A stretch of DNA of 64,000 bases from Streptomyces antibioticus (GTDB lineage: Bacteria; Actinomycetota; Actinomycetes; Streptomycetales; Streptomycetaceae). Location of the stretch: contig NZ_KQ948426.1 of assembly GCF_001514065.1 (NCBI RefSeq), positions 682,001-746,000 on the forward strand, in the 5' to 3' direction. A program made the position numbers and the translations under genes. Each line of letters opens with the position of its first letter. Position 1 is the stretch's first letter. Under the pieces are notes generated by a model that worked only from the letters and a program-made list of their open reading frames with translations, made no database searches and was not told the origin of the DNA. Below, in pieces: positions 2,733 through 45,527 of this stretch.

Positions 2733-4784
2733 GTGAGCGCCGAGATCTACCGAGATGCCTGGGGCATCCCGCATCTGCGGGCGGACGGCGTGCACGCACT
2801 CGCCCGGGCCCAGGGTCTGGTCACCGCCCGCGACCGCGCCTGGCAGCTGGAGGTCGAACGGCACCGCGCCCGCGGCACCTCGGCCGCCGTCCTCGGCATC
2901 GACGCCCTCCCCTGGGACCGCTTCGTCCGGCGCGCCCGCCTCGACGACACCGCGCGACGCTGCTTCGCCGACCTGGAGAGCCGGGACCCCGAGACGGCCG
3001 ACTGGGTACGGGCGTACGTCGACGGCGTCAACGACGGCCTCACCGGCGCGGACCTCCCGCTCGGCACCCCCGGCCCCTGGGAGCCCTGGACCCCGCTCGG
3101 CATCTGGCTCGCCACCCACATCCTCTTCGCGGGCTTCCCGGCGAAGCTCTGGCGTACCGAGGCGACGAAGCACCTCGGCGAGGCGGCCGTCGGACTGTTC
3201 GCCACCGACGGACCCGGCACCTCCGGCAGCAACGGCTGGCTGGTGAGCGGCGAGCGCACCGCGACGGGCCGGGCCGTCATCGCCGGCGACCCGCACCGCT
3301 TCATCGAGGACCCCGGCGTCTACCAGCAGATCCACCTGTCCTGCCCGGAGTTCGACGTCATCGGCCTCGCCGTCCCCGGCGTCCCCGGCATCGCCCACTT
3401 CGGCCACACCGGCACGGTCGCCTGGGCCATCACCAACGCCATGGCCGACTACCAGGACCTCTACGACGAGAAGCTGCGCCGCACCGGAGCCGGGGTGGAA
3501 GCCCTTGACCCGGACGGGAGGTGGCGGCGCGCCTCCCGGCACACCGAGACCGTCGCGATCGCGGGCGAGGAGCCGGTGGAGGTCGAGGTCATCGAGACCG
3601 CACGCGGCCCGGTGATCGCCGGCGGCCCCGAGGGCCTCGACGACGGCACCCCGCTCGCCCTCAGCCTGCGCACCCCGCCCCGGGTGACCGGCGACCTGGG
3701 CTTCAGCACCCTGCTCCCCCTCCTGCGGGCCCGCCGGGTCGCCGACGTCGACCGGGCCTTCGACCAGTGGGCCGAGCCGGTCAACGTGGTGCAGGCCGCC
3801 GACACCGAGGGCGGGCTGCTGCACCGGGTCGCGGGCCGGGTGCCGGTACGGTCCACCGCCAACCGCACCCGGGTGGTGCCCGCCTGGGAAGCCGGGCACG
3901 AGTGGACCGGCTGGCACGACATGCCCCGCGCCGGTCTCACCGACGGCGTCGCCGTCATGGCCAACCAGCGCGGCCCGGCCACCCCGCTCGGCGTCGAGTT
4001 CGCGCCGCCGCACCGCGCCGACCGCATCGCCGAACTCCTCGCCGGGAAGGCGAAGTGGACGGCCGCCGACATGCCGGCCATCCACATGGACACCCGTCTC
4101 GGCTCCGCAGGGCCCCTGTTGGACCACCTGGCGGCCCTCACGGACCTGAGCCCCGGGGCGGGTGAGCTCAGAGCGACGCTCCTCGCCTGGAACCGCCGTA
4201 TGGACGCGGACAGTTCGGCCGCCGCGCTGTTCGCGGCGGTGCGCACCGCGCTCGTACGACGCCTCGCCGCACACCCCGCCTTCGCCGCGCTCACCACCCC
4301 GCCCGCCTACCCGGAGGTCCTCCTCCCCTGGCTCGGGCTCACCCCGCGCATCGGGTTCGCGCTCGAACACCTGCTGCGGGCCGAGGAGTTGTACGGCATC
4401 GACCGGCCGGCCGAGGTGCGTGCCGCCGTCGAGGAGGTGGCCCTGGCAGGGCCGGTCAAGACGTGGGGCGACACGCACCGTCTGGTGCCGTGGCGGGCGC
4501 TGCCCGACCCGTCGTACGACGGACCGGGGCTCTCCGGCGACCACGACTGCGTGCTGTGCACCTCGGCCGTCCCCGGGCTCACCGACCTGGCCGCGCGCGG
4601 ACCCGCCGCCCGGTACGTGTGGGACCTGGCCCGGCGTGAGGACAGCCGCTGGGTGGTGCCGTTCGGCGCCTCCGGGGCGCCCGGCTCGCCCCACCACCGT
4701 GATCAACAGCCCCTGTGGCTCGGCGGCGAACTGGTCCCGGTCGTCACCGACTTCGAACAGCTCAGCAAGGAGAGCGATGTCTGA
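2733..4784 (+). CDS. Penicillin-acylase-family Ntn hydrolase
   Basis: A 683-residue Ntn hydrolase of the penicillin G acylase/AHL acylase/PvdQ type. The N-terminal EIYRDAWGIPHLRA is the family signature, and GTSGSNGWLV at residues 162-171 carries the GSN-x-W motif with Ser166 as the expected autoprocessing nucleophile. AGDPHRF follows, and the beta-chain region continues with GHTGTVAWAITNAMADYQDLY. Unlike most relatives it has no signal peptide, so a cytoplasmic role is expected. The GTG start has GGGAGAG upstream. It sits immediately downstream of the iron box and overlaps the next gene by 8 bp, so it is probably iron-repressed. Substrate unknown; a role in siderophore maturation or salvage is inferred from context only. 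Confidence 0.85.
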   Translation: MSAEIYRDAWGIPHLRADGVHALARAQGLVTARDRAWQLEVERHRARGTSAAVLGIDALPWDRFVRRARLDDTARRCFADLESRDPETADWVRAYVDGVNDGLTGADLPLGTPGPWEPWTPLGIWLATHILFAGFPAKLWRTEATKHLGEAAVGLFATDGPGTSGSNGWLVSGERTATGRAVIAGDPHRFIEDPGVYQQIHLSCPEFDVIGLAVPGVPGIAHFGHTGTVAWAITNAMADYQDLYDEKLRRTGAGVEALDPDGRWRRASRHTETVAIAGEEPVEVEVIETARGPVIAGGPEGLDDGTPLALSLRTPPRVTGDLGFSTLLPLLRARRVADVDRAFDQWAEPVNVVQAADTEGGLLHRVAGRVPVRSTANRTRVVPAWEAGHEWTGWHDMPRAGLTDGVAVMANQRGPATPLGVEFAPPHRADRIAELLAGKAKWTAADMPAIHMDTRLGSAGPLLDHLAALTDLSPGAGELRATLLAWNRRMDADSSAAALFAAVRTALVRRLAAHPAFAALTTPPAYPEVLLPWLGLTPRIGFALEHLLRAEELYGIDRPAEVRAAVEEVALAGPVKTWGDTHRLVPWRALPDPSYDGPGLSGDHDCVLCTSAVPGLTDLAARGPAARYVWDLARREDSRWVVPFGASGAPGSPHHRDQQPLWLGGELVPVVTDFEQLSKESDV

Positions 4785-19878: not shown

Positions 19879-20778
19879 GTGTCCGGATTCGTAGAAAAGC
19901 CCGAGCCGATCCAGGTGCCGGGCTTGGTGCATCTCCACACCGGCAAGGTGCGCGAGCTGTACCAGAACGAGGCGGGCGACCTCGTGATGGTCGCCAGCGA
20001 CCGTATCTCCGCGTACGACTGGGTGCTGCCCACCGAGATCCCGGACAAGGGCCGGGTCCTCACCCAGCTCTCCCTGTGGTGGTTCGACCAGCTCGCCGAC
20101 CTGATCCCGAACCACATCATCAGCACCGACCTCCCCGAGGGCGCCCCCGCCGACTGGGCGGGCCGCACGGTGGTCTGCAAGTCGCTCCAGATGGTCCCGG
20201 TCGAGTGCGTGGCCCGCGGCTACCTCACCGGCTCCGGCCTGGTGGAGTACAACGAGTCGCGTACGGTCTGCGGCCTCGCCCTCCCCGAGGGCCTGTCCGA
20301 CGGCAGCGAGCTGCCGGCCCCGATCTTCACCCCGGCCACCAAGGCCGCGGTCGGCGAGCACGACGAGAACGTGTCGTACGAGGAGGTCGCCCGCCAGGTC
20401 GGCGCCGACACCGCCGCCCAGCTGCGCCAGGCCACCCTCGCCGTCTACACCCGCGGCCGGGACATCGCCCGCGACCGGAGCATCCTGCTCGCGGACACCA
20501 AGTTCGAGTTCGGCTTCGACGGCGACACCCTCGTCATCGGCGACGAGGTCCTCACCCCGGACTCCTCCCGCTTCTGGCCGGCCGAGTCGTGGGAGCCGGG
20601 GCACGCGCAGCCGTCGTACGACAAGCAGTTCGTGCGGGACTGGCTGACCTCGGCGGCCTCCGGCTGGGACCGCAAGAGCGAGCAGCCGCCGCCCGCGCTG
20701 CCGCAGGAGGTCGTGGACCGCACCCGCGCCAAGTACATCGAGGCGTACGAGCGCCTGACGGGCACCAGCTGGAACTGA
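19879..20778 (+). CDS. purC: SAICAR synthetase
   Basis: A 299-residue enzyme that condenses CAIR with aspartate (purine step 8). GKVRELYQ, VASDRISAYDWVLP, PVECVARGYLTGSG and DTKFEFGFD are family motifs; length and order are normal. The GTG start has GGGGAGGAA directly upstream. A terminator shared with the convergent tRNA-Gly follows 9 bp after the stop. Confidence 0.96.
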   Translation: MSGFVEKPEPIQVPGLVHLHTGKVRELYQNEAGDLVMVASDRISAYDWVLPTEIPDKGRVLTQLSLWWFDQLADLIPNHIISTDLPEGAPADWAGRTVVCKSLQMVPVECVARGYLTGSGLVEYNESRTVCGLALPEGLSDGSELPAPIFTPATKAAVGEHDENVSYEEVARQVGADTAAQLRQATLAVYTRGRDIARDRSILLADTKFEFGFDGDTLVIGDEVLTPDSSRFWPAESWEPGHAQPSYDKQFVRDWLTSAASGWDRKSEQPPPALPQEVVDRTRAKYIEAYERLTGTSWN

Positions 20779-39939: not shown

Positions 39940-40134
39940 TCATGCGTCGGCGGGACTTTCGTCCTGTACCGGCTCGTCGGCCCCCTCGGGAGCGCTGCGG
40001 GGCGGGGAGGCCATCGCCAGCCGCAGCAGCTGATGGCAGATCGGGCAGTGCCGGGTGAGATGGCGATAGGAGGAGGCGGCCGACAGATGGGCACGGAGCA
40101 GCGCCCGCGTCTCGTGCCTGACCGAAGCCGCCAT
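39940..40134 (-). CDS. Small Cys/His protein (DUF6274-like)
   Basis: A 64-residue protein. MAASVRHETRALLRAHLSAA is followed by SSYRHLTRHCPICHQLLRLA, where H-x4-HCPxCH could bind zinc. ATG 40134 has GGAGG 6-7 nt upstream, which selects this start within a long open frame. It resembles a Streptomyces family I recall as DUF6274; function unknown. Neighbours are bldC upstream and the tRNA-Asp repeat array on the same strand. Confidence 0.7.
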   Translation of the reverse strand: MAASVRHETRALLRAHLSAASSYRHLTRHCPICHQLLRLAMASPPRSAPEGADEPVQDESPADA

Positions 40135-40282
40135 ACGCCACCTCCAGGGGCCGCACAGGGAAGGGGCCCTGGTTTCTGGGTACCGACCGAATGTGACGCC
40201 GTCAAGACGGCACGAGGCGGCTGAGGGGGCTGTGCGGGGAGAGGCCCAGCTGGTCGACGTACGGCTGGACGCACAAACAAGA

Positions 40283-40308
40283 AAGCCCGGATCCGAAGAT
40301 CCGGGCTT
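40283..40308 (-). terminator. Terminator at the far end of the tRNA-Asp repeat array
   Basis: AAGCCCGGATC and complement around a tetraloop that reads TTCG on the minus strand, followed there by TCTTGTTTG. It closes the leftward transcript from tRNA-Asp. Confidence 0.8.
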
Positions 40309-40313
40309 CTTTA

Positions 40314-40718
40314 CTGCGGTCCTGACGGGATTTGCTGTACTCGATTGAGGCTGCGCCGCGGGCGCGGCCTCCACCTTGGCAGGGTGGCGAGCGGGTTGAG
40401 CGTGAAGAAGGGCCGTGCCCTTGTCGGGGCACGACCCTTGCTTCTTTGCTGCGGTCCTGACGGGATTTGCTGTACTCGATTGAGGCTGCGCCGCGGGCGC
40501 GGCCTCCACCTTGGCCGGGTGGCGAGCGGGTTGAGCGTGAAGAAGGGCCGTGCCGTTGTCGGGGCACGACCCTTGCTTCTTTACTGCGGTCCTGACGGGA
40601 TTTGCTGGACCCGATTGCGGCTGCGCCGCGGGCGCGGCCTCCACCTTGGCCGGGTGGCGAGCGGGTTGAGCGTGAAGAAGGGCCGTGCCCTTGTCGGGGC
40701 ACGACCCTTGCTTCCTTA
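40314..40718 (-). repeat. Three 135-bp tandem repeats made of tRNA-Asp pieces plus a terminator hairpin
   Basis: Units 40314-40448, 40449-40583 and 40584-40718 differ at only a few positions. Read on the minus strand each contains a hairpin AAGGGtCGTGCCCC/GGGCACGgCCCTT, an A/C-rich join, then the anticodon stem and variable region of tRNA-Asp (GCTCGCCACC..AGGTGGAGGCCGCG), a roughly 25-nt insertion, and the intact tRNA 3' end CAAATCCCGTCAGGACCG. The 5' acceptor strand and D arm are missing and the anticodon loop is altered. The intact gene follows at 40722. Confidence 0.9.
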
Positions 40719-40721
40719 CTG

Positions 40722-40796
40722 CGGTCCTGACGGGATTTGAACCCGCGGCCTCCACCTTGACAGGGTGGCGAGCACTCCAAACTGCTCCACAGGACC
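40722..40796 (-). tRNA. tRNA-Asp (GUC), copy 1
   Basis: A 75-nt cloverleaf: acceptor GGTCCTG/CAGGACC, anticodon loop CTGTCAA (GTC), T arm with GGTTCAAATCC. Same sequence as the copy at 45453-45527. Its downstream side carries the 135-bp array. Confidence 0.95.
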
Positions 40797-40890
40797 AGGT
40801 TTCGCGGCGCTTATTGTTGCATTGCGCTGCGAGAAGGACTGTACAGGAGGGTGAGGGTCCTGCGCGAACTCACCCCGTGTGCACGGTCGG

Positions 40891-43800
40891 TCACGGGACG
40901 GCCGCGTCGATCGCCTTCACGATCCGCTTGTCCGAGATGGGGTACGCCGTGCCCAGCGCGTGGGCGAAATAGCTGACCCGGAGCTCCTCGATCATCCAGC
41001 GGATGTCCAGGACGGCGGCCGGCACCGGGCGGCCCTGCGGCATCTGCTCCAGGAGCCAGGCGTACTCGTCCTGCATCTCGTGGACCTTCTCCATGCGCGT
41101 CGTGTCCCGCTGCACGGCCGTCGGCATCTGCTGGAGGCGACGGTCGGCGGCGACCAGGTAGCGCATCAGGTCCGGCAGCCGGCGCAGCCCCGTCGCCGTC
41201 ACGAAGCCCGGCTTCACGAGGGCGTCCAGCTGCTTGCGCACGTCCGTCAGGTTCGCGAGGAGCGCGGGGCTGCGTACGCCCTTCAGACGGCGCTCACAGG
41301 CCTGCCAGGCGGCCAGCACCTGCTGCACCTGCCCGACCGTGCGCACCGTCGTGTCGACGATCTCCGCGCGGACCTTGTCGTACAGCTTCCGGTACGACTC
41401 CTCGTCCCACGCCGGTCCCCCGAAGTCGCCGATCAGCTTGTCCGCCGCCGCCATCGCGCAGTCGTCGAACAGGGCCTGGATCGTGCCGTGGGGGTTGGCG
41501 GAGAGCGCCAGCTTCTGGGCGTTCGTCAGGTGATCGCTCGCGAACTTCGCCGGGTTCACCGGGATGTTGCGGAGCACCAGCCTGCGCGTGCCCTTCCACA
41601 TTGCCTCAGCCTGCTCCGCCTCGGTGTCGAAGAGCCGGACCGAGACCGTGTCGCCGTCGTCCACGAGGGCCGGGTACGCCTTCACCGGCTGACCGGCCCG
41701 GCGCGTCTCGAAGACCCGCGTCAGCGTGCCGATCGTCCAGTCCGTGAGGCCCTTGCGCTCCAGGGACTCGCCGCCCTGGCGCTCGGCGGTGGCCGCCGCG
41801 GCCTGCGAGAGGGCCTGGCGCGCCTTCGGCTTCAGCCGGAGCTTCAGTGCCTCAAGATCCTTGTCCTCGGCCAGCTTGCGGCGCCGCTCGTCGACGATCC
41901 GGAAGGTGATGCGCAGGTGCTCGGGGATCTTCGACCAGTCGAAGTCCTCGGCCTCGAAGGGCACCCCGACCATGCGCTTCAGCTCACGGGCCATGGTGGT
42001 CGTGAGGGGCTCCTGAAGGGGGACCGCCGTGTCCAGGAAGCGTTTGGCGAAGTTCGGCGCCGGGACGTAGTTGCGGCGGATCGGCTTGGGGAGGGAGCGG
42101 ATCAGCTCCGTCACGACCTCCTCGCGCAGGCCCGGGATCTGCCAGTCGAAGCCCTCGTCCGTGACCTGGTTGAGGACCTGGAGCGGGATGTGGACGGTGA
42201 CACCGTCGGCGTCCGCGCCCGGCTCGAACTGGTAGGTGACCCGGAACTTCAGCTGGCCCTGCCGCCAGGAGTCCGGATAGTCGGCCTTGGTGACCGCCTC
42301 CGCCGACTCCCGGATGAGCATCTCCCGCTCGAAGTCGAGGAAGTCGGGCTGCTCGTGCCGCTTGCGCTTCCACCAGGAGTCGAAGTGGGCGCCGGAGACG
42401 ACGTGGTCGGGCACCCGCTGGTCGTAGAAGTCGAAGAGGGTGTCGTCGTCGACGACGATGTCCCGGCGCCGGGCGCGGTGTTCGAGCTCCTCGACCTCGC
42501 TCAGCAGCTTGCGGTTGTCGGCGTAGAACTTGTGGTGCGTACGCCAGTCGCCCTCGACGAGCGCGTTGCGGATGAAAAGCTCGCGGCTCGTCTCGGGGTC
42601 GATCCGGCCGTAGTTGACCTTGCGCTGGGCGACGATCGGTACGCCGTACAGCGTGACCTTCTCGTACGCCATCACGGCCGCCTGGTCCTTCTCCCAGTGC
42701 GGTTCGGAGTACGTCCGCTTCAGCAGGTGCTCGGCGAGCGGCTCGACCCACTCCGGCTCGATCTTGGCGTTGACGCGGGCCCAGAGGCGCGAAGTCTCCA
42801 CCAGCTCCGCCGACATGACGAAACGGGGCTGCTTCTTGAAGAGCGACGAGCCCGGGAAGATCGCGAACTTGGCGCTGCGGGCGCCCAGGTACTCGTTCTT
42901 GTTGCCGTCCTTCACGTCCTTCATCCCGATGTGGGAGAGAAGGCCGGCGAGGAGGGAGACGTGGACGGACTGGTCCGGCGCGTCGTCCTCGTTGAGATGG
43001 ATGCCCATCTGCTTGGCGACGGTGCGCAGTTGCGTATAGATGTCCTGCCATTCGCGGATGCGCAGGAAGTTGAGGTACTCCTGCTTGCACATCCGGCGGA
43101 AGGACGACGACCCCCGCTCCTTCTGCTGCTCGCGGACGTACCGCCACAGGTTCAGATAGGCGAGGAAGTCGCTGGTCTCGTCGCGGAAGCGGGCGTGCTG
43201 CTGGTCGGCCTGGGTCTGCTTGTCGGCGGGGCGCTCACGCGGGTCCTGGATGGACAGCGCCGCCGCTATGACCATGACCTCGCGAACACAGCCGTTCTTG
43301 TCGGCCTCCAGGACCATTCGGGCCAGCCGCGGGTCCACAGGCAGCTGGGCGAGTTTGCGGCCGGTGTCGGTGAGGCGCTTGCGCGGGTCCTTCTCGGCCG
43401 GGTTCAGCGCGCCGAGCTCCTGGAGGAGCTGGACGCCGTCGCGGATGTTGCGGTGGTCCGGCGGGTCGATGAAGGGGAACTTCTCGATGTCGCCGAGGCC
43501 GGCCGCGGTCATCTGGAGGATGACGGAGGCGAGGTTCGTGCGGAGGATCTCCGCGTCCGTGAACTCCGGGCGGGCGAGGAAGTCGTCCTCGCTGTACAGC
43601 CGGATGCAGACACCGTCGGACGTACGGCCGCAGCGGCCCTTGCGCTGGTTGGCGCTGGCCTGCGAGATCGCCTCGATGGGGAGCCGCTGGACCTTGGTGC
43701 GGTGGCTGTAGCGGGAGATACGGGCGAAGCCCGGGTCGATGACGTACTTGATGCCCGGGACGGTGAGGGAGGTCTCGGCGACGTTCGTCGCCAGAACGAT

Positions 43801-44859
43801 CCTGCGGCCGGTGTGCGGCTGGAAGACGCGGTGCTGCTCGGCGTGCGAGAGCCGGGCGTAGAGGGGGAGGACTTCCGTGAACCGGTAGTTCTTCTTGTTC
43901 AACGCGTCCGCGGTGTCGCGGATCTCCCGTTCGCCCGAGAGGAAGACCAGGATGTCGCCCTTGCCCTCGCCCTGGAGCTCCTCGACGGCGTCGCAGATCG
44001 CGGTGATCTGGTCGCGGTCGGCGTCCTCGGAGTCCTCTTCGAGCAGCGGGCGGTAGCGGACCTCCACCGGGTAGGTCCGGCCGCTGACCTCGACGATCGG
44101 GGCGTCCCCGAAGTGCCGGGAGAAGCGCTCGGGATCGATGGTGGCGGAGGTGATGACGACTTTCAGATCCGGCCGCTTCGGCAGCAGCTGGGCCAGATAG
44201 CCGAGCAGGAAGTCGATGTTGAGGGACCGCTCGTGGGCCTCGTCGATGATGATCGTGTCGTAGGCGCGCAGCTCGCGGTCGGTCTGGATCTCGGCGAGCA
44301 GGATGCCGTCGGTCATCAGCTTGACGAAGGTGGCGTCCGGGTTCACCTGGTCGGTGAACCGCACCTTCCAGCCGACGGCCTCGCCGAGGGGGGTGTTCAG
44401 CTCCTCGGCCACACGCTCGGCGACGGTCCGGGCGGCGATACGGCGGGGCTGCGTGTGCCCGATCATGCCGCGGACGCCACGACCCAGCTCCATACAGATC
44501 TTCGGGATCTGGGTCGTCTTGCCGGACCCGGTCTCACCGGCCACGATCACGACCTGGTGATCACGGATGGCGTCCGCGATCTCGTCCTTCTTCTGGCTGA
44601 CCGGGAGCTGCTCGGGATAGCTGACGGCGGGCACGCGGGAGCGGCGCCCGGCCATGCGTTCCTCGGCCTTCGCGACCTCGCCCTCGATCTCGGCGAGCAC
44701 GGCGGCACGGGCCTCCGGCTTGCGGATCTTGCGCGCGCCTTCGAGCCGGCGGCCGATCCGGTGCGCGTCACGCAGGGACAGCTCGCTCAGGCGGGGGGCG
44801 AGGGCGCCGAGGCTCGGGGCATCGGAGGCGCCGGGGGCGGGGGCGGGATGCGTAGACAT
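40891..44859 (-). CDS. hrpA: ATP-dependent RNA helicase HrpA
   Basis: A 1322-residue DEAH-box helicase, full length for the family. Walker A is VAGETGSGKTTQIPK, Walker B IIIDEAHERSLN (DEAH), motif III VITSATIDPERFS and motif VI SANQRKGRCGRTSDG; the winged-helix, HA2 and OB-fold parts follow, and the long C-terminal DUF3418 region marks HrpA rather than HrpB. E. coli HrpA rescues stalled ribosomes. It is the largest gene of the window and runs leftward towards tRNA-Asp. Confidence 0.96.
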   Translation of the reverse strand: MSTHPAPAPGASDAPSLGALAPRLSELSLRDAHRIGRRLEGARKIRKPEARAAVLAEIEGEVAKAEERMAGRRSRVPAVSYPEQLPVSQKKDEIADAIRDHQVVIVAGETGSGKTTQIPKICMELGRGVRGMIGHTQPRRIAARTVAERVAEELNTPLGEAVGWKVRFTDQVNPDATFVKLMTDGILLAEIQTDRELRAYDTIIIDEAHERSLNIDFLLGYLAQLLPKRPDLKVVITSATIDPERFSRHFGDAPIVEVSGRTYPVEVRYRPLLEEDSEDADRDQITAICDAVEELQGEGKGDILVFLSGEREIRDTADALNKKNYRFTEVLPLYARLSHAEQHRVFQPHTGRRIVLATNVAETSLTVPGIKYVIDPGFARISRYSHRTKVQRLPIEAISQASANQRKGRCGRTSDGVCIRLYSEDDFLARPEFTDAEILRTNLASVILQMTAAGLGDIEKFPFIDPPDHRNIRDGVQLLQELGALNPAEKDPRKRLTDTGRKLAQLPVDPRLARMVLEADKNGCVREVMVIAAALSIQDPRERPADKQTQADQQHARFRDETSDFLAYLNLWRYVREQQKERGSSSFRRMCKQEYLNFLRIREWQDIYTQLRTVAKQMGIHLNEDDAPDQSVHVSLLAGLLSHIGMKDVKDGNKNEYLGARSAKFAIFPGSSLFKKQPRFVMSAELVETSRLWARVNAKIEPEWVEPLAEHLLKRTYSEPHWEKDQAAVMAYEKVTLYGVPIVAQRKVNYGRIDPETSRELFIRNALVEGDWRTHHKFYADNRKLLSEVEELEHRARRRDIVVDDDTLFDFYDQRVPDHVVSGAHFDSWWKRKRHEQPDFLDFEREMLIRESAEAVTKADYPDSWRQGQLKFRVTYQFEPGADADGVTVHIPLQVLNQVTDEGFDWQIPGLREEVVTELIRSLPKPIRRNYVPAPNFAKRFLDTAVPLQEPLTTTMARELKRMVGVPFEAEDFDWSKIPEHLRITFRIVDERRRKLAEDKDLEALKLRLKPKARQALSQAAAATAERQGGESLERKGLTDWTIGTLTRVFETRRAGQPVKAYPALVDDGDTVSVRLFDTEAEQAEAMWKGTRRLVLRNIPVNPAKFASDHLTNAQKLALSANPHGTIQALFDDCAMAAADKLIGDFGGPAWDEESYRKLYDKVRAEIVDTTVRTVGQVQQVLAAWQACERRLKGVRSPALLANLTDVRKQLDALVKPGFVTATGLRRLPDLMRYLVAADRRLQQMPTAVQRDTTRMEKVHEMQDEYAWLLEQMPQGRPVPAAVLDIRWMIEELRVSYFAHALGTAYPISDKRIVKAIDAAVP

Positions 44860-45429: not shown

Positions 45430-45452
45430 ACGAGGCTTCAGGGAAACCTCAG

Positions 45453-45527
45453 CGGTCCTGACGGGATTTGAACCCGCGGCCTCCACCTTGACAGGGTGGC
45501 GAGCACTCCAAACTGCTCCACAGGACC
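45453..45527 (-). tRNA. tRNA-Asp (GUC), copy 2
   Basis: A 75-nt copy of the tRNA-Asp at 40722-40796, anticodon GTC. It lies between tRNA-Glu and tRNA-Phe in a Glu-Asp-Phe transcription order and has no repeat array of its own. Confidence 0.95.

Follow-up and report, generated by a model that had tools for sequence, protein, structure and literature searches.

A palindromic 28-nt module in conserved arrays of truncated tRNA-Asp copies of Streptomyces

Introduction

In the 64,000-nucleotide stretch of the Streptomyces antibioticus genome analysed here (the window), an intact tRNA-Asp gene is followed by three shortened copies of itself. Two questions arise: how did such an array originate, and what is the sequence that occupies the T arm of each copy? 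The first-pass annotation of this DNA, made from the letters alone, had proposed either att-like sites left behind by integrative elements or an expanding transcript of tRNA-like decoys processed together with the tRNA. We addressed these questions by comparing the locus with its relatives in other genomes and by searching for the T-arm sequence elsewhere, both in this genome (10.1 Mb in 29 contigs) and across the genus.

Results

The intact tRNA-Asp(GUC), the source of the copies, is placed at 40721-40796 of the minus strand by ARAGORN and at 40722-40796 by Rfam. Downstream of it in the direction of transcription, and on the same strand, are three units of 135 bp (40305-40709): unit 3, the nearest to the tRNA, at 40575-40709, unit 2 at 40440-40574, and unit 1, the farthest, at 40305-40439. 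Tandem Repeats Finder reports this repeat at 40305-40739 with a period of 135, 3.2 copies and 97% matches, and pairwise comparison of the units shows 3, 4 and 5 differences over the 135 positions, so the near-identity claimed at first sight holds. Read along the minus strand, each unit begins with a terminator-like hairpin of 32 nt, AAGGGTCGTGCCCC..GGGCACGGCCCTT (40678-40709, 40543-40574 and 40408-40439 in units 3, 2 and 1), continues with a tRNA-Asp-like stretch from about tRNA position 24 through the anticodon arm (anticodon-arm part at 40633-40662, 40498-40527 and 40363-40392), passes through a replaced segment of the T arm and closes with the exact tRNA-Asp 3' end CAAATCCCGTCAGGACC (40588-40604, 40453-40469 and 40318-40334). 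The 5' acceptor strand is absent from every unit, the D arm is absent except for its last bases GCTC, and the anticodon loop is altered in each. These features, the full 3' end and the stable hairpin agree with the earlier description, as does the lack of an array at the second tRNA-Asp of the window (45452-45527), which lies within a Glu-Asp-Phe group. None of the three units is called as a tRNA by ARAGORN or Rfam. Elsewhere in the window, a 95-nt tRNA-Asp call of ARAGORN at 20349-20443 lies inside coding sequence and looks false.

The last unit is followed by a terminator-like hairpin (40282-40309, minus strand) whose sequence differs from that of the unit hairpins. Upstream of the tRNA lies a gene for an hrpA-type helicase with DUF3418 and HA2 domains (40891-44859, minus strand), which is linked to the array in relatives, and downstream of the array lies a DUF6274 gene (39940-40134, minus strand). 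An assembly artefact, named at the outset as something that would refute the array, is unlikely because the units bear their own substitutions and multi-copy arrays are present in other genomes, including the single-contig genomes G093 and G044. The repeat was also considered as a protein repeat, its period being divisible by 3 and its frames open; this reading was rejected since the periods in other species (127, 134, 143 and 184) are not multiples of 3.

The T arm had been correctly recognised as altered, but the change is a replacement rather than an insertion. The tRNA sequence GGCCGCG-GGTT-CAAATCC appears as GGCCGCG-(28 nt)-CAAATCC in 74 of the 93 units that could be parsed (out of 101 units from 83 arrays, 8 remaining unparsed), and in the other 19 the replacing segment measures 27-38 nt. 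The replaced tetranucleotide, GGTT on the tRNA strand, is AACC on the plus strand, and the module that stands in its place occupies plus-strand positions 40605-40632 in unit 3 and, in diverged form, 40470-40497 in unit 2 and 40335-40362 in unit 1. On the strand opposite to the tRNA it reads CTGTGTCYGATTGCGGCTGCGCCGCGGG in many relatives. 

This module is not confined to the array. At up to two mismatches it occurs at 18 places in this genome, one of them being the array, against none for the reversed pattern; a second reversed-pattern control gave 0 against 15 places, and two further controls likewise gave 0. Our main result is this dispersed palindromic module itself, which looks like a very small spreading sequence and, judged by its anatomy, resembles a tiny repeat of the kind of Rickettsia palindromic elements (RPE) or REP elements. 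At sites whose empty form is known, some 28 nt have taken the place of four, and in tRNA genes the replaced nucleotides belong to the 3' part of a loop, viewed along the module strand. In four relatives (L050, L070, L099 and a variant in L021), the module replaces the 3' part of the anticodon loop in extra tRNA-Phe copies, and in three of these four cases AAAAG has given way to 29 nt, a net gain of 24.

A dispersed repeat without any Rfam match at the loci tested, GGGGCGCGGGG-AACT-GCGCGACCAGCC with its variants, is found at 83 places in this genome (for example, C2:287760-287811). By eye, 69 of the 83 keep AACT (one of them as ACT), and 14 carry a relative of the module, 28-30 nt long, at this position. 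Flanking duplications do not mark these sites: the scores were 16.7 for 23 repeats without the module and 16.5 for 11 repeats with it, against a background of 19.3. A 61-nt hairpin bearing the module at its apex was matched in 62 of 150 genomes at E 0.001, a count that includes tRNA units and module-only matches. Several large hairpins with the module or one of its relatives are situated at gene ends, between direct duplications of the gene end that vary in length (27-70 bp). Scripted detection recovered duplications of 27-45 bp at L175, L184 and L193, that is, at three non-tRNA loci of the 30 examined, and the same script also scored the tRNA units L199 and L202. Inspection by eye added L171 and the start of a presumably recO-like gene in L168 (G040, around 1300-1650). 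Both duplicate copies contain the final codons together with the stop in L171, L175 and L184. At another locus, L169 (G062), the module is possibly reversed inside a coding region, around 1494.

The module also occurs in frame inside protein genes of relatives (L194, L195, L200, L201 and L214-L222), where it is translated as TASDSGSAAG or a close variant. The host proteins are SdhA-like, NuoL-like, a RimI-like acetyltransferase and others. Filled and empty orthologs, as expected for an RPE-like sequence, were found among the sdhA-like genes. Thirty such loci, picked with a query that itself contains the module, were read by eye: 8 have a clear module, 4 have diverged look-alikes, 13 have short loops, 4 have unrelated insertions, and 1 went unread. 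The match length is 510 nt in the 8 clear-module loci versus 486-489 nt in the 13 short-loop loci, and the filled loci carry the module in more than one register. On a tree of 22 sdhA-like loci, at least five changes between the filled and empty states are needed, two of them forced by well supported branches, with 3 of its 8 module rows (L217, L221 and L223) being diverged look-alikes and with 8 of the 30 loci, including the module-bearing L216, L219 and L222, left out. The filled L215 is sister to the empty L230, which is the locus of the genome studied here. The loop is generally variable, as its unrelated insertions and the look-alikes too diverged to call testify; despite this, neither mutation step by step nor GC-rich coding that is alike by chance explains well why the loci share a block of 28 nt. 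Of the NuoL relatives of known structure, PDB 8e9g is without the module stretch and 6hum has other residues at that position; the comparison of acetyltransferases revealed no clear gap at the module and no clear empty form. A moving block is the best reading of the module shared by all these places, its movement by an active process being inferred.

How widely the array itself is distributed was estimated in several ways. When one unit was compared with 295 genomes of the genus, the best match had E < 1e-7 and was longer than a tRNA-only match in 58 of them by a count made by eye, its own genome included. The core is located close downstream of a tRNA-Asp in all 30 loci inspected from this search and in 57 of the 60 named loci of the pattern scan, the three exceptions being an assembly gap (L068), a contig end (L095) and an apparent tRNA-Phe element lying between (L050). 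The relatives in these 60 loci belong to Streptomyces (57), to entries named only actinobacterium (2) and to Actinacidiphila (1). The array stands either after tRNA-Asp alone or after the Glu-Asp-Phe group, in the latter case with tRNA-Phe in the unit, and is mostly linked to the hrpA-type gene. Among the collected loci there are 83 distinct arrays, of which 69 have one unit, 10 have two and 4 have three.

A strict pattern detected a module-bearing tandem copy in 39 of 392 Streptomyces genomes and a tandem tRNA-Asp copy without the module in none of them (gap ranges of 100-160 and 82-140, respectively, with exact anchors, so that decayed copies are missed). Conservation beyond the strain, which the first-pass annotation had named among the deciding points, is strong. 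The contrast between these two counts had suggested that the insertion was coupled to the duplication; this idea was dropped because a single origin, indicated by the hrpA tree, is sufficient to explain the lack of module-less copies. A strict pattern for the module was also run over 396 genomes of the phylum. It matched one of the 12 Streptomyces rows and none of the 384 genomes outside this genus. The absence outside the genus is only weakly indicated, since the pattern missed this genome and G067, both of which carry the array. In our data, the module is known only from Streptomycetaceae, by a test that is insensitive outside the genus.

On a midpoint-rooted hrpA tree of 42 rows, all 27 rows with the array (this genome entering twice) fall into one well supported clade, which also contains 3 of the 15 rows without it. 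Gain and loss of the array require 4 changes on this tree versus 12.5 in shuffles. The rows without the array are a biased sample from the small-genome end of the listing (15 of the 25 fetched loci, the other 10 having no intact pair of hrpA and tRNA-Asp in the stretch), and the tree covers the arrays other than those of the Glu-Asp-Phe locus and of Actinacidiphila (L083). The simplest account is one old gain followed by several losses and then by local changes in copy number, the single origin being suggested by the branching order of the hrpA sequences. Comparison of spacers in 82 of the 83 arrays agrees with local change: the spacer after the tRNA and that after the last unit have a mean identity of 0.82 within genomes and 0.66 between them, with 47 of 82 arrays at 0.8 or more; local duplication or homogenisation is the likely cause. 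The last spacer of the array in the window differs (0.60), and the last terminator is therefore probably the native one.

The units do not change evenly. Across 325 pairs from 26 genomes, the mean identity is 0.844 in the module columns, 0.616 at hrpA third positions and 0.469 on the anticodon-arm side, and the module exceeds the hrpA third positions in 320 of the 325 pairs, which are not independent of each other. These values come from a set of 30 loci, 4 of which have no usable hrpA; of the module, the search pattern contained no more than the final 3 nt, whose columns were excluded. Because 84% identity between species stands against 62% at hrpA third positions and 47% in the tRNA-derived flank, the module beside tRNA-Asp looks constrained. 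The same loci show no variation in the tRNA 3' end, which, however, the search pattern included. The anticodon-arm part is decaying in other species, except for GGAGGCCGCG. In a profile of 80 of the 83 arrays, many of which were found by patterns or BLAST queries containing the core, identity to tRNA-Asp begins near tRNA position 24 and exceeds 0.9 only in about GAGGCCGCG adjoining the module.

Folding was compared with mononucleotide shuffles in the same 82 arrays. Strong folding is seen in the first spacers, with a mean z of -4.7 and 74 of 82 below -2, and the last ones have a mean z of -3.4 with 62 of 82 below -2, while the core alone, on the tRNA strand, folds no better than shuffles (mean z 0.02). 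For the outer helix of the module, the share of paired cells is 92.6% when the strand opposite to the tRNA is read and 64.8% on the tRNA strand, a difference that rests largely on G-U pairs. Covariation in the core does not rise above the shuffle control and is uninformative, because the stems, including the partner side, hardly vary.

Discussion

The data establish the anatomy of the array, the module common to its units and to other sites, the exchange of 28 nt for 4 in the tRNA-Asp copies, the distribution, the conservation of the module above hrpA third positions and the clustering on the hrpA tree. Beyond this we lean, with some confidence, towards the reading that a 28-nt element entered a partial tRNA-Asp copy and was then inherited, multiplied and brought under constraint, in repeats that probably serve as a structured insulator. 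In an ancestor shared by a large clade of Streptomyces, a palindromic mini-element of this size would have come to lie in the T arm of a partial tandem copy that ran from about tRNA position 24 to the end of the terminator. The intact upstream tRNA-Asp would have stayed functional, and the truncated copy with its own terminator would have been inherited and, in some lineages including the present one, multiplied, with unequal exchange or slippage as the probable cause. Other sites in the genus would have received the module in a similar way, about 28 nt replacing 4: the loops of extra tRNA-Phe copies, the apices of dispersed hairpins and a turn in the sdhA-like gene. The likeliest role of the repeats is that of a structured insulator, rich in terminators, which separates tRNA-Asp from the DUF6274 gene; their folding spacers suggest it. 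An insulator of this sort need not conserve the sequence of the module, so its conservation is left unexplained by this role; the constraint on the core may reflect a function at the level of either RNA or DNA.

The proposal that the units are att scars, left by integrative elements that used the 3' end of tRNA-Asp, could draw on the tandem arrangement and on an identity reaching exactly to the tRNA 3' end. In one relative, L050 (S. himalayensis), tRNA-Phe does appear to have served an integrative element: upstream of the unit, at about 3050-3130, this locus has a tRNA-Phe 3' half without the 5' half, probably the far att site of an element integrated in tRNA-Phe, and this att-like fragment carries no module. 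For tRNA-Asp, we consider att scars very improbable. The 50,697 phage and the 72,556 plasmid records yielded three matches each, none of which covered more than part of the query (34-51%) or had an E better than 0.1, and viral contigs gave no exact pattern match; the neighbours of the array are the hrpA-type helicase and DUF6274 genes. The tRNA 3' sequence that would form the core is interrupted in all 93 parsed units, in 74 of them by exactly 28 nt and in the other 19 by 27-38 nt, and the conserved 28-nt block also occurs in protein genes and in other places where no att site of an integrase is expected. Moreover, the spacers resemble the host's own terminator and are alike within a genome, and the array fits vertical inheritance on the hrpA tree. 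Thus, the suggestion of att-like sites finds no support here. As a candidate mover, the Y1 transposase (PF01797) was rejected: nine matches were found in 5 of 8 genomes, and the best module-like sequences near them scored 20-28, against a background average of 24 and 50 or more for real modules, so that no RAYT linkage appeared at the PF01797 loci of these eight genomes.

Two readings without an insulator seem unlikely to us, and to a similar degree. One is a regulatory RNA locus, in which tRNA-like or antisense RNAs from the repeats act on tRNA-Asp or its processing. It agrees with the conserved sequence of the module together with 10 nt, with that of the tRNA-Asp 3' end (which belonged to the search patterns) and with the better pairing of the outer helix opposite to the tRNA. 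This strand difference, as stated above, depends on G-U pairs and is accompanied by no real covariation; no sigma-70-like promoter, the one promoter type sought, was found in 40230-40900, and at gathering scores Rfam yielded only tRNA at the loci tested, the weak sub-threshold matches looking like chance. Processed tRNA-like decoys in particular are at odds with the missing 5' acceptor strand and with a module that pairs better on the opposite strand. A bolder combination, in which a mobile module of a new kind swaps for 4 nt at or near hairpin loops and turns and was captured at tRNA-Asp in a plus-strand antisense RNA, appears very doubtful to us. In such an RNA, the conserved arms (17 and 10 nt) would match the complement of the 3' half of tRNA-Asp to the left and right of GGTT, and with the module hairpin looped out, it would be able to pair with or sense tRNA-Asp. 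The other reading is a functionless pseudogene array under concerted evolution, with the module as an old passenger. The homogenised spacers, the varying copy number, the decayed anticodon arm and the rows without an array inside the array clade all speak for it. The identity of the module between species, well above both hrpA third positions and the adjoining flank, speaks against it, since homogenisation acts inside a genome and cannot account for likeness from one species to another.

If the module is mobile in the way that the favoured reading supposes, it would be among the smallest spreading sequences known to us, and one whose presence in tRNA copies and in housekeeping enzymes does not kill the cell. 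The tRNA-Asp array offers an old, conserved and easily deleted locus for asking whether such a sequence has gained a function. For annotation, a practical warning follows: extra protein loops reading TASDSGSAAG and odd tRNA calls may be the module.

We recognised no earlier description of the module or of the array in the literature as covered by titles and the beginnings of abstracts, subscription journals falling mostly outside this scope, and we know of no element that explains the exchange of 28 nt for 4. Integrative elements of actinomycetes have attachment sites at tRNA 3' ends, and the array recalls them in that the 3' half of a tRNA is repeated downstream of the gene; the array differs in that the module lies inside the copy, the spacers are host-like, and no adjoining element or integrase was found. 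MITEs are small and have no coding capacity, features shared by the module, but they make a target-site duplication of constant length, and at the module no constant duplication is seen, four nucleotides apparently being lost rather than duplicated. REP elements are short hairpins with a conserved 5' stretch, repeated in a genome, often within larger palindromes and associated with RAYT transposases. The module is likewise a short palindrome with a conserved 5' stretch, repeated in the genome and often set within larger palindromes; it differs in having no linked Y1 transposase at the loci tested and in occurring also inside coding genes and tRNA copies. The RPE, of about 100-150 bp, are palindromic and dispersed, and they occur in intergenic DNA as well as in frame within coding genes. 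On these general features the module is like them, yet it measures only 28 nt, replaces 4 nt at sites whose empty form is known and resides in the tRNA loops and hairpin apices of Streptomyces.
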